A DNA stretch of 64,000 nt from an uncultured Rubrobacteraceae bacterium. GTDB taxonomy: Bacteria; Actinomycetota; Rubrobacteria; Rubrobacterales; Rubrobacteraceae. The DNA lies in assembly GCA_902806085.1 (NCBI GenBank), contig CADCVH010000079.1, forward strand, positions 1 to 64,000, given 5' to 3'. Shown piece by piece: positions 554-12,543 of this stretch. The stretch's first letter is position 1; the number at the start of each line of letters is the position of its first letter. A program made the position numbers and the translations under genes. The notes beneath the pieces were generated by a model. That model was not told the origin of the DNA and ran no database searches. It worked only from the letters and a program-made list of their open reading frames with translations.

Positions 554-1311
554 CTAGGTTTTCAGGCGGTAGCCCGTTTTGAAGATCCACCAGACAGCCG
601 TCAGGCACAGGGCCAGGAAGAGGACCGTCATGGCCATGCTCAGGCCGACGCTCACGTCGGCGACCCCTAAGAAGCTCCAGCGGAAGGCGTTTATGAGGTA
701 GACGACGGGGTTGAAGAGGGTGGCCGTCTGCCAGAACGGGGGCAGCATATCGATGGAGTAGAAGCTGCCGCCGAGGAAGATCAGGGGCGTGACGATGAGG
801 AAGGGCACGAGTTGGAGCTTCTCGAAGCCGTCGGCCCAGATGCCGAGCACGAAGCCGAAGAGGCTGAAGGTGAAGGCGGTGAGGATCAGGAACATCAGCA
901 TCCAGAGCGGGTGCATGATCTGGAGTGGCACGAAGAGGCTCGAGGTGGCGAGGATGATGAGGCCCAGGATCACCGACTTGGTCGCCGCGGCCCCGACGTA
1001 GCTGATGACGATCTCGACGTAGGAGACGGGGGCTGACAGGATCTCGTAGATCGTGCCCGTGAACTTCGGAAAGAAGATCCCGAACGAGGCGTTGGTGATG
1101 CTCTGCGTCAACAGCGAGAGCATGATGAGGCCCGGCACTATAAAGGCCCCGTAGCTGACCCCGTCGATGTCGGAGATGCGCGAGCCTATGGCCGCCCCGA
1201 AGACGACGAAGTACAGGGAGGTCGAGATGACGGGCGAGACGATGCTCTGCAGCACCGTGCGCCAGGTGCGGGCCATCTCGAAAACGTAGATCGCGCGGAT
1301 CGCGTGAAAGT

Positions 1312-1315
<4 letters not shown>
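554..1315 (-). CDS. ABC-2 type exporter permease (DrrB-like)
   Basis: A 253-residue integral membrane protein with about six hydrophobic segments, matching the ABC-2 permease family (DrrB/NodJ type) in length and pattern. It carries the family-typical stretch with [13 protein letters not shown] after the first helices and [13 protein letters not shown] near the C-terminus. The start ATG (1315-1313) overlaps the stop of the ATPase gene as ATGA, so the two are translationally coupled and surely form one exporter. A longer open frame upstream of this ATG runs through the ATPase gene in another frame and is not coding. Substrate is unknown; drugs, lipids and polysaccharides are all exported by such pairs. 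Confidence 0.93.
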
Positions 1316-2238
<923 letters not shown>

Positions 2239-9063: not shown

Positions 9064-9525
9064 ATGGCCGAGCAGCAGAGGAACGCGTTTCGGGGCTTTC
9101 TGGACATGGCGAGCGAGATGAACCGGATACGCAACGTCGGCAGCTACGGCGGGGAGACCGGCGGGGAAGAGCGGGAGAGGACCCACGCCAACGCCTGGGT
9201 ACCGCCCGCGGACGTGTTCACGCGGGGGCAGGACCTCGTGATCCGGATGGAGCTTGCGGGCGTGGCCCCGCAAGACATCGACGTCTCGTTCCACGAGAAC
9301 ACGCTTACCGTCTCCGGCGAGCGCGGCAAGGACGTGGACGAGGTGGACTTCTACGTCCACGAGCGCTTCTACGGCGTCTTCCGGCGCAGCATGACCCTGC
9401 CCGCCGGTATAAGCGAGAACGACATAAGCGCCGAGTTCGACAACGGCCTCGTGGAGATCACCGCAGAGGGCGCCGCCGCCTCCCCGGAGCCCCGGCGCAT
9501 AGAGGTCCGCAACAGGACGTCCTGA
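9064..9525 (+). CDS. Hsp20 / alpha-crystallin small heat-shock protein
   Basis: A 153-residue small heat-shock protein. The alpha-crystallin domain spans about residues 44-140: it begins at WVPPADVFTRGQDLVIRMEL, has VSFHENTLTVSGER, and the conserved FRRSMTLPAGI followed by FDNGLVEIT. Such proteins form oligomers that hold unfolding clients in the cytoplasm. AGGAGGAGAAG immediately precedes the ATG. A 220-base leader precedes the gene and includes TATAGGAT near 8874 as a possible -10. I did not find a CIRCE or clear HAIR operator. Two hairpins follow the gene. Confidence 0.95.
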   Translation: MAEQQRNAFRGFLDMASEMNRIRNVGSYGGETGGEERERTHANAWVPPADVFTRGQDLVIRMELAGVAPQDIDVSFHENTLTVSGERGKDVDEVDFYVHERFYGVFRRSMTLPAGISENDISAEFDNGLVEITAEGAAASPEPRRIEVRNRTS

Positions 9526-9805: not shown

Positions 9806-11542
9806 ATGGCGCAACAGGTACGGGAACGGGAAGAAAGGTCCCAGGTTGGGATAGTTTTCTATGTCTCCGCGGCGTTCGCGGCGGGGTTCATATTGTGGGG
9901 CGCGCTCGCGCCGGAGAACTTCGGCGCCGTGACGCAAGGCATCTTCGACTGGGTGGTCACGAACCTCGGCTGGTTCTACCTCCTGGCGGGCAACTTCTTC
10001 TTGCTCTTCGTCGTGATCCTCGCCCTCAGCAAGTACGGCAAGCTCCGCCTGGGCAAGGACGGCGAGACGCCCGAGTTCAGCAACTTCGCGTGGTTCGCCA
10101 TGCTCTTCCAGGCCGGGATGGGGCCGTCCCTAATCTTCTGGGGCGTGGCCGAGCCGCTCGCGCACTACAATGCCCCGCCCTTCGGCCTGGCAAAGGCGGG
10201 CTCGGTTGAGGCCGCCCAGGTGGGGATGCAGTACACCTACTTCCACTGGACGCTCCACCCGTGGGCCATGTACGCCGTCGTCGGGCTCGCGGTCGGGTAC
10301 TTCAGCTTCCGCAGGGACGAGCCCGGTCTCATAAGCCCCGTCTTCAGGCCGCTCTTGGGCAGCCGGGTGGACGGGTCGATCGGCAAGACCATAGACGTGC
10401 TGGCGGTGCTGGCGGTCCTCTTCGGCGTCGCGGTCTCCCTGGGGTCGGCGGGGCTCCAGATGACCGCCGGGCTCGGCGAGACCTTCGGCACCCCGACGGG
10501 GATAGCCACGCAGTTGCTCGTCATCGGGGTCACCACGGTGGCGTTCATGATCTCCGCCTCGACGGCCGTCGAGAAGGGGGTCAACTACCTCAGCCAGATC
10601 AGCATGTACGTGGCCGGCGTCTTGCTGCTGATCTTCCTCGTGATGGGCCCCACGGCCACCCAGCTCGGCGCCCTCACTCAAGGGGTCGGCGACTACTTCG
10701 GCAACCTGATCCCCATGAGCATGAGGGTGCAGTCCTTCAACCAGGACTCCGCGTGGCTCGGCAGCTGGACCGTCTTCTACTGGTCGTGGTGGATCGCCTG
10801 GTGCCCGTACGTGGGCCTGTTTATCGCGCGCATCTCGCGGGGGCGCACCATCCGGCAGTTCGTCATCGGCGCCGTCGGTGGCCCGAGCGTGGTCACCTTC
10901 GTCTGGGTGGCCGTCTTCGGTGGGTCGGCCATCCACCTCGACCGGACGCAGGGCGGCGGGATAGCCGACAGCGTCGTCGCCGACCCGGCGAGCGGGATGT
11001 TCGTCTTTCTCAACCAGTTCCCGCTGGCCCTCGCCATGTCCGTCCTGACGCTCGTCGTGCTCTGGATCTTCTTCGTCGCGGGCGCCGACGCGGGGACGAT
11101 CGTGCTCGGCAGCATGTCAACCGGCGGACCCAGGGAGCCCAGGAGGTGGATCAAGCTCTCCTGGGGCCTCGCCATGGCCGCCATCGCGGGCATCCTGCTC
11201 GTGGCCGGGGGCCTCGGCGCCCTGCAGTCGGCCTCGGTCCTTACCGGGGTGCCGTTCGCCTTTATCATGGTCCTCATGTGCGTGGCCTTCCTCAAACACC
11301 TCATGAGCGAGGCCCGGGGAGGCGGCGAACAGGGCCGCGCTGACGTGGACCTCGCGGAGCGCGCCAGGGAGTCGCGGCCGTCGGTGCGCCGGACGCCGGG
11401 ACGCCCGGCGACGGGCCCTGCGACCGGCCAGGCGTTCTCGGCCGAAGACCCGATGCCGGGCTCCAACGTGCAACCGGGCGGCCGGATGCGGCCGGGCGGC
11501 CTGCCCGGGGACCAACCCCAACCCGGGATGGGGGGGCGGTGA
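9806..11542 (+). CDS. BCCT family betaine/carnitine/choline transporter
   Basis: A 578-residue membrane protein with about 12 hydrophobic segments. The BCCT signature region is clear, for example GMGPSLIFWGVAEPLAHY in the early part and SWTVFYWSWWIAWCPYVGLF near residue 330, which carries the aromatic box that holds quaternary ammonium groups. It imports betaine, carnitine, choline or ectoine by coupling to sodium or protons. The last 60 residues are a proline/glycine-rich hydrophilic tail that could be an osmosensing or disordered extension. The TGA overlaps the GTG of the binding-protein gene, so the two are co-translated. Confidence 0.95.
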   Translation: MAQQVREREERSQVGIVFYVSAAFAAGFILWGALAPENFGAVTQGIFDWVVTNLGWFYLLAGNFFLLFVVILALSKYGKLRLGKDGETPEFSNFAWFAMLFQAGMGPSLIFWGVAEPLAHYNAPPFGLAKAGSVEAAQVGMQYTYFHWTLHPWAMYAVVGLAVGYFSFRRDEPGLISPVFRPLLGSRVDGSIGKTIDVLAVLAVLFGVAVSLGSAGLQMTAGLGETFGTPTGIATQLLVIGVTTVAFMISASTAVEKGVNYLSQISMYVAGVLLLIFLVMGPTATQLGALTQGVGDYFGNLIPMSMRVQSFNQDSAWLGSWTVFYWSWWIAWCPYVGLFIARISRGRTIRQFVIGAVGGPSVVTFVWVAVFGGSAIHLDRTQGGGIADSVVADPASGMFVFLNQFPLALAMSVLTLVVLWIFFVAGADAGTIVLGSMSTGGPREPRRWIKLSWGLAMAAIAGILLVAGGLGALQSASVLTGVPFAFIMVLMCVAFLKHLMSEARGGGEQGRADVDLAERARESRPSVRRTPGRPATGPATGQAFSAEDPMPGSNVQPGGRMRPGGLPGDQPQPGMGGR

Positions 11543-12543
11543 TCTTCGGTTCGCGGGCGCGCAGGGTCTTGCCGTGGTTGCTCGTCCTCGCGGCGGTCGC
11601 CGCTTTGGCCGCCGGCTGCGGCCCCGGCGGGGGCGGCGGCTCGGGGGAGAACGGGAACCGTATCGAGCCGGACCAGTTCCGGCTGAGCGGCACGCAGCGC
11701 GACGCCCAGTTCGCCGTCGGGTCCGAGACCTTCACCGAGCAGGAGGTCCTCGGGAGCATCACCATGCAGGTCCTGGAGGCCGCCGACGCCACGGTCGTCG
11801 ACAGGACCGGGCTCGGCGGCAACGAGGCCGTGCGCCAGGCGCTGGAGGACGGCGAGATCGACCTCTACTGGGAGTACACCGCCACGGGCTGGCTCGTCCA
11901 CCTCTCAGAGACCCGCTCCATAACCGACCCGCAGGCCCAGTACGAGGCCGTCGCCAAGCAGGACCTCCAAGAGAACGGCATCCGGTGGCTCCCGCCCGCT
12001 CCCGGTAACGACACCTACGCGATCGCGGCGAGCAAGAAGACCCGGCAGGACCTCGACATCCGGAGCATCTCCGACCTGGCGCGGCTGGCCGAGGAGCGTC
12101 CCGAAGAGGCGACGCTGTGCTTCAACAACGAAGACGACTTCCGCACCCGCTTCGACGGGCTGCCCGGCATGCAGCGGGCCTACGGCTTCCAGTTCCCCGA
12201 GGAGAACCTGGTCGAGGTGTCCCTGGACGCGGTCTACGGGGCCGCGGACGAGGGCGAGATCTGCAACTTCGGCGTCGTCTTTACCACCAGCGGCTTTCTC
12301 CGGGAGTCGGGCCTCCAGCTCCTCGAAGACGACGAAAACTTCTTCGCCGTCTACAACCCCTCGCTCACCATCAGGGGCGAGATGTACGAGCAGTACCCCC
12401 AACTCCGCGAGCTCTTCGCCCCCATATCCAAAAAGCTCGACACGGAGACCCTCCTGGACCTGAACTACGCCGTCGAAGTCGAGGGCAAGGCCCCCGAAGA
12501 CGTCGCCCGCCGGTGGCTCCGGGAGAACGGCTTCATCGAGTAG
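11539..12543 (+). CDS. Glycine betaine-type substrate-binding lipoprotein (OpuAC/ProX-like)
   Basis: A 334-residue exported protein. An arginine-rich start, a hydrophobic stretch and a lipobox ending LAAGC predict lipid anchoring at the membrane. The mature part is an OpuAC-type periplasmic binding fold: QFAVGSETFTEQEVLGSI opens the domain and GEIDLYWEYTATGW lies in the expected place for ligand contacts. Members usually serve an OpuA/ProU ABC importer, but no ATPase or permease gene is adjacent. Instead the GTG start overlaps the stop of the BCCT transporter (GTGA). This pairing suggests either a ligand-capture aid for BCCT or an orphan whose ABC partners lie elsewhere. Confidence 0.92.
   Translation: MIFGSRARRVLPWLLVLAAVAALAAGCGPGGGGGSGENGNRIEPDQFRLSGTQRDAQFAVGSETFTEQEVLGSITMQVLEAADATVVDRTGLGGNEAVRQALEDGEIDLYWEYTATGWLVHLSETRSITDPQAQYEAVAKQDLQENGIRWLPPAPGNDTYAIAASKKTRQDLDIRSISDLARLAEERPEEATLCFNNEDDFRTRFDGLPGMQRAYGFQFPEENLVEVSLDAVYGAADEGEICNFGVVFTTSGFLRESGLQLLEDDENFFAVYNPSLTIRGEMYEQYPQLRELFAPISKKLDTETLLDLNYAVEVEGKAPEDVARRWLRENGFIE

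Follow-up and report, generated by a model that had tools for sequence, protein, structure and literature searches.

Can a secondary carrier of the BCCT family be served by a substrate-binding protein? To our knowledge, no binding-protein partner is known for BetP or other BCCT carriers (BetP, BetT and CaiT need none), and LeuT-fold carriers are taken to work alone. The question is raised by a stretch of 64,000 nucleotides from an uncultured Rubrobacteraceae bacterium (hereafter the window), in which a BCCT gene runs directly into a gene coding for an OpuAC-type substrate-binding lipoprotein. Examination of the two proteins, their relatives and the ABC importers of the genomes that carry them supports best the reading that a binding protein of ABC origin has been recruited to a BCCT carrier.

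Results

A BCCT gene overlapping an OpuAC lipoprotein gene

The pair is preceded by an Hsp20 gene, probably a member of the same stress cluster, and followed by genes coding for a TIM-barrel protein and an FGGY kinase (Table 1). An earlier note on this DNA had claimed that the stop of the carrier gene overlaps the start of the lipoprotein gene, which is correct to the nucleotide. It had also claimed that no ABC gene is near, and this holds for osmolyte importers: neither ATPase nor permease genes of such a system were found among the neighbours in the window, and the ABC-2 exporter-type gene pair at 554-2238 (minus strand), about 7.5 kb from the BCCT-lipoprotein pair, is unrelated. A promoter scan found no sigma-70-like site.

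The overlap is a recurrent feature. A stop/start overlap of the form NTGA is present in 14 of 16 BCCT-lipoprotein pairs compared, including those of Nocardioidaceae and Propionibacteriales MAGs, and in the remaining two the lipoprotein start lies 2 to 4 bases after the BCCT stop. Such a recurrence is more than chance.

Table 1. Position of the gene pair and associated features in the window.
Feature	Position	Strand	Product	Evidence
BCCT-family secondary carrier gene	9806..11542	+	578 aa	PF02028, TIGR00842 matches
OsmF/YehZ-like OpuAC substrate-binding lipoprotein gene	11539..12543	+	334 aa, GTG start	PF04069 match
GTGA, overlap of BCCT stop and lipoprotein GTG start	11539..11542	+		sequence
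Codons for the Pro/Gly/Arg-rich C-terminal tail of the BCCT carrier	11321..11539	+	residues 506-578	
Hsp20 gene, upstream of the pair	9064..9525	+		PF00011, 1.1e-17

The lipoprotein is of the OsmF/YehZ type

Residues 60-329 of the lipoprotein match PF04069 (1.8e-54), and a lipobox-like LAAGC with Cys27 can be recognised by eye. The NCBIfam OsmF model matches at 1.2e-55 and 188.7 bits, below its cut-off of 400 bits, which places the protein outside the OsmF equivalog. The closest proteins by sequence (phmmer) are nevertheless YehZ/OsmF-type chains, and the AlphaFold2 model (pLDDT 87) finds its best PDB matches in YehZ (5teu and 4wep). The lipoprotein consists of the binding domain only, no signalling domain or regulator being present within the pair, and it evolves under purifying selection (dN/dS 0.15-0.28).

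Pocket residues Y113, T116, Y160, R204, Y215, Y233 and Y272 are all kept in the window lipoprotein. In a residue comparison, the first five are identical in 14/14 paired and 39/39 ABC-linked rows, while Y233 and Y272 are found in every paired row and in 37/39 and 36/39 ABC-linked rows, respectively. Two positions differ between the groups: position 69 is E in 12/14 paired rows versus L in 31/39 ABC-linked rows, and at position 63 all 7 rows of the sub-clade to which the window belongs have E, versus K in 39/39 ABC-linked rows. Cysteines C194 and C242 are invariant in the paired clade; they were rejected as its mark, being also present in 37/39 ABC-linked homologues.

Position 63 aligns without gaps with K13 of Archaeoglobus fulgidus ProX, a residue that, in work by Schiefner et al. 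of 2004, is said to contact the carboxylate of the ligand. In a wider table of pairs, E63 of the lipoprotein and a GMGP[AS] glycine motif in the carrier occur together in 9/9 pairs of the window's sub-clade. The other seven carriers, devoid of GMGP, have GMGIG or GVGLS instead, and their partner lipoproteins have K at position 63; the alignment row of the Nocardioidaceae lipoprotein L123 reads GSK at this site. BetP carrying G153D at its glycine motif is described as choline-specific (PMC6400524). Our hypothesis is that the window's sub-clade has shifted away from betaine as ligand. The link between E63 and GMGP goes back to one event in evolution and may be coincidental.

The carrier has a complete BCCT core

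Residues 17-501 of the carrier match positions 1-484 of the 485 in the PF02028 profile (3.9e-180), so that the full transmembrane core is covered, and the NCBIfam bcct model TIGR00842 is matched above its cut-off (3.6e-148). BetP and other BCCT carriers (TC 2.A.15) share with it the fold family, the aromatic box and the region of the glycine motif. The box is kept in TM4 and TM8 (FHWTLHPWAMY and FYWSWWIAW in the phmmer alignment to BetP) and the glycine motif reads GMGPS.

The Na+ sites of BetP are defined as Na1' (T246/T250) and Na2 (T467/S468) (PMC6400524). In the phmmer alignment to BetP these residues are V/V and A/G in the window carrier, which therefore lacks the residues of BetP-type Na+ coupling at both sites. 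Such residues are no general requirement for BCCT membership. Loss of the Na2 residues was rejected as a mark of pairing: A/G is also found in several unpaired relatives and TS in other paired carriers, so this change is not linked to pairing.

The earlier note had drawn attention to an odd Pro/Gly-rich tail of 60 residues. The tail is real, the last 60 residues being 38% Pro+Gly and residues 506-578 being predicted as disordered (pLDDT <50, in a structure model that is weak overall at pLDDT 63 and was used for the tail alone). It is not tied to pairing and was rejected as a mark of it, since the tail is Pro/Gly-rich in the window's sub-clade only (20-38% versus 5-22% elsewhere). It contains the motif GQAFSA, found as [GS]QAF[TSA]A in 7/9 members of the sub-clade. 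Several unpaired BCCTs (L013, L061:7311-8915, L079, L095 and L105) have C-terminal tails of another kind, in which MQEIM/MEEIM-like segments are repeated. A comparison of 15 paired with 13 unpaired BCCT rows for residues common to all of the former and absent from the latter gave nothing decisive, so that no docking surface is visible.

The pair recurs in five genera and beyond the family

As the earlier note would lead one to expect, the pair co-occurs in other genomes. Searches with both proteins, combined with inspection of the neighbourhoods, identified same-strand BCCT-OpuAC pairs in 11 of 39 Rubrobacteraceae genomes, many of which are MAGs, from five genera. The carriers of the pair are the window's own genome (G000), G003, G004, G005 (two pairs), G006, G008, G017 (two pairs), G020, G024, G047 and G048; the BCCT gene of G008 and the lipoprotein gene of one G005 copy were each read in two pieces. 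Outside the family, pairs were found in three MAGs, two of Nocardioidaceae (L123 and L125) and one of Propionibacteriales (L128), in the same Hsp20-BCCT-OpuAC order as in the window.

When the lipoprotein alignment was run against the GTDB species collection, 274 relatives were recovered, of which 80 were kept. Most of these 80 have the lipoprotein homologue within permease-ATPase-permease-binding protein operons, and the Rubrobacteraceae pairs recur among them. Around L125, a search of 392 genomes at the level of the order (up to 5 candidates scored per genome, cut-off 1e-85) returned only L125's own copy. In a phylum sample of 396 genomes, again with up to 5 candidates scored per genome, every full-length member of the paired clade has a score of at least 513 bits and a BCCT gene upstream of it. 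The next matches reach 432 and 423 bits; no new pair was seen in the remaining neighbourhoods that were inspected, which are ABC operons or the convergent case of L212. No paired-clade lipoprotein lacking an adjacent BCCT gene was found in the genomes sampled. Matches listed in a plasmid search are all below 60% identity.

One lipoprotein clade, several carrier lineages

In a 55-row tree with midpoint root, built like the others from rows picked by hand among the matches, the 14 paired lipoproteins form one clade (support 100/99) that adjoins or falls among OsmF-type binding proteins of ABC operons. An earlier quick tree, rooted on L014, had the paired rows nested within the ABC-linked rows. 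With a midpoint root in one tree and L014 as root in the other, the order of events is best worded as a suggestion that the lineage was ABC-associated first and BCCT-paired later.

The carriers behave differently. A single clade of paired BCCTs was rejected in a careful tree built without the longest branches (AU p=1.6e-5, at least 3 changes), as it was in the first tree that included the long branches (AU p 3e-95). The lipoprotein lineage thus stays with BCCTs of different lineages. Judging from the trees, the lipoprotein was either passed from carrier to carrier or belongs to an old pair that was lost beside many BCCT copies; in both scenarios it is still tied to BCCT genes.

ABC importers of the pair-bearing genomes

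The window's genome (4.4 Mb in 133 contigs) contains four BCCT genes. The premise of the earlier note, that a BCCT carrier does its work with no binding protein, continues to hold for the characterised ones, and three of these four genes are devoid of a same-strand lipoprotein partner.

Seven OpuAC loci were found in this genome, one of them (C84) broken by an in-frame TAA (L018:8247-9073). C8 is the only one with ATPase and permease genes. A search with the OpuA-type permease profile returned the C8 pair only, which has a binding protein of its own, about 30% identical to the window lipoprotein, and no ProU-type permease was found at E 1e-15. An orphan ABC importer, the finding that in the earlier note would have spoken against its reading, was accordingly not found in this genome by the permease profile search. 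No OsmF-type ABC permease was found in the pair-bearing genomes G000 and G047. Among the relatives, every ABC cluster checked in G003, G005, G006, G017, G020, G024 and G047 is accompanied by a binding protein; the G048 cluster (C526) reaches the contig end, with none beside it there.

Other solo OpuAC genes of the window's genome (C53, C73, C111 and C98) have no visible ABC partner, and solo genes with no adjacent ABC genes lie at L015:8469-9359, L016:11408-12256 and L017:8732-9571. The gene of an amino-acid-permease-type carrier (PF13520, L016:8031-9560) shares its strand with a solo OpuAC gene and lies three genes downstream of it. Sulfatase-like genes occur in the vicinity of solo OpuAC genes at two loci and of a BCCT gene at another (L015:5328-6761, L016:6236-7744, which matches PF00884, and L019:980-2437); as a mere thought, they hint at choline-sulfate use. 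In G047 and G017, three tandem OpuAC matches stand beside a ProU-type permease and ATPase (L188:2772-5578 and L195:5907-8396).

Hsp20 genes beside BCCT genes

Hsp20 genes stand beside BCCT genes with or without a lipoprotein, as in the window (9064-9525), L013:9251-9703, L019:7491-7952 and L061:6833-7294. Eight genomes have 24 Hsp20 genes between them, and 15 of these adjoin a BCCT gene by hand count, a proportion that is not an unbiased rate because the genomes were chosen as pair-bearing and are mutually related; the binomial value of 2.6e-30, which treats the genes as independent, means only that adjacency is far above random placement. Hsp20 side and strand vary relative to the BCCT gene.

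A second arrangement was seen in G000 (C53, L013:7598-10732) and G044 (C433, L094), where BCCT and Hsp20 genes share one strand and an OpuAC lipoprotein gene is convergent. These lipoproteins form a separate lineage within the ABC-linked part of the tree and represent a second, separate association.

Discussion

Proposed function of the pair

The best supported reading is that a BCCT has recruited a binding protein from an ABC system. It is backed by the conservation of the pair, the single lipoprotein clade, the exclusive pairing among the genomes sampled and the absence of an OsmF-type ABC importer from two pair-bearing genomes. In the mechanism we propose, an OsmF-type substrate-binding protein, formerly part of an ABC osmolyte importer, would have become the partner of a BCCT carrier. 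It would be lipid-anchored at the outer face of the cytoplasmic membrane, bind a methylated-ammonium osmolyte in its aromatic cage and deliver this ligand to the outward-facing carrier, which would gain in effective affinity or directionality, while translational coupling would allow both proteins to be made in step. The membrane anchoring, the ligand class, the physical contact, the hand-over and the energetics are inferred. We regard hand-over, or another direct functional dependence between the two proteins, as an evenly balanced proposition; the other BCCT genes of the window's genome, which have no same-strand partner, count against it, as would a C8 importer that could accept extra binding proteins.

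Three other explanations have to be weighed. The first, which we consider improbable while ranking it ahead of the other two, gives the lipoprotein a sensory or regulatory role: as a sensor of osmolyte outside the cell, or as a regulatory subunit, it would turn the carrier on in response to ligand, no hand-over being involved. Osmoregulation is a feature of BCCT carriers such as BetP, and the pairing data fit this explanation equally well. OpuAC-like solo lipoproteins near osmolyte genes are known, for example GbsU (PMC6207618). The pair has neither signalling domain nor regulator, which speaks against a sensor, and in sequence a sensor and a hand-over protein look the same.

Unlikely, too, and placed second, is that the lipoprotein serves as an extra binding protein for an ABC importer located elsewhere (of the C8 type in the window's genome), the carrier being a co-regulated second route for the same osmolyte. 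The position of the lipoprotein clade beside or among ABC-operon binding proteins, the complete C8 importer and the other OpuAC genes standing alone in that genome (L015, L016 and L017) would all be compatible with it. However, C8 and the ABC clusters of the relatives, G048 C526 at its contig end excepted, have their own binding proteins; the C8-type protein is only distantly similar, and the OsmF-operon importer that the lipoprotein does resemble is absent from G000 and G047. The exclusive pairing with BCCT genes and the conserved overlap would also be left unexplained.

Least probable is that carrier and lipoprotein are merely co-transcribed stress genes, along with Hsp20, and depend on each other neither physically nor functionally: Hsp20, which hardly acts in transport, does stand beside unpaired BCCT genes as well, but its side and strand vary, whereas the lipoprotein gene nearly always follows the BCCT gene directly and overlaps its stop, and the lipoprotein clade was not found away from BCCT genes in the genomes sampled.

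Comparison with known systems

Recruitment of the lipoprotein by the carrier would bring the pair close to the TRAP (TC 2.A.56) and TTT (TC 2.A.80) systems, ion-driven secondary carriers whose uptake depends on a binding protein that supplies them from outside the cytoplasm (PMC5812351). The membrane parts of these systems are DctQM or TctAB, with binding-protein families of their own, whereas a single BCCT protein stands here with an OpuAC/OsmF-type protein. The pair thus belongs to neither family and has at most a TRAP/TTT-like mode of working. Nor is it an ABC osmolyte importer of the OpuA, ProU or OsmVWXY type, the operon being devoid of ATPase and permease genes. OsmF/YehZ of the YehZYXW and OsmVWXY systems, the closest to the lipoprotein by sequence and predicted fold and a neighbouring group in the tree, is encoded after permease-ATPase-permease genes, whereas the window gene follows a BCCT gene and K63 has become E in its sub-clade.

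The nearest case described in the sources available to us is GbsU of Halobacillus halophilus and Virgibacillus, a solo osmolyte-binding lipoprotein with no adjacent ABC genes, for which Borrelia ProX served as modelling template and which resembles OpuAC of B. subtilis (PMC6207618). GbsU sits with glycine betaine synthesis genes, whereas the window lipoprotein sits with a BCCT gene, and coupling of GbsU to a BCCT gene is not described in the part of that source available to us. No description of a BCCT carrier with its own binding protein was found in the one open literature library searched, including the accessible part of PMC13300293, which does not prove that none exists.

Significance

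The widest reading, which we advance tentatively and hold to be a little short of even, is that the secondary transporters dependent on binding proteins include a third class, represented by this pair. In it, a LeuT-fold BCCT carrier would be fed by a lipid-anchored OsmF-type protein taken over from an ABC importer, and the lineage of this lipoprotein would have switched from one BCCT lineage to another. If true, a BCCT member would extend binding-protein-fed secondary carriage from TRAP and TTT systems (PMC5812351) to the LeuT fold, and the pair would show a part of an ABC importer being transferred to a carrier with a different energy source. Comparison of paired and unpaired BCCTs in one genome would then let the contribution of the binding protein, in affinity or in one-way transport, be asked directly. 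Relatives of Rubrobacter live in dry soils, where the capture of osmolytes at low concentration is a plausible need, and a pairing that, judged from gene order and sequence, is conserved across genera may represent a new way of feeding BCCT-type carriers.
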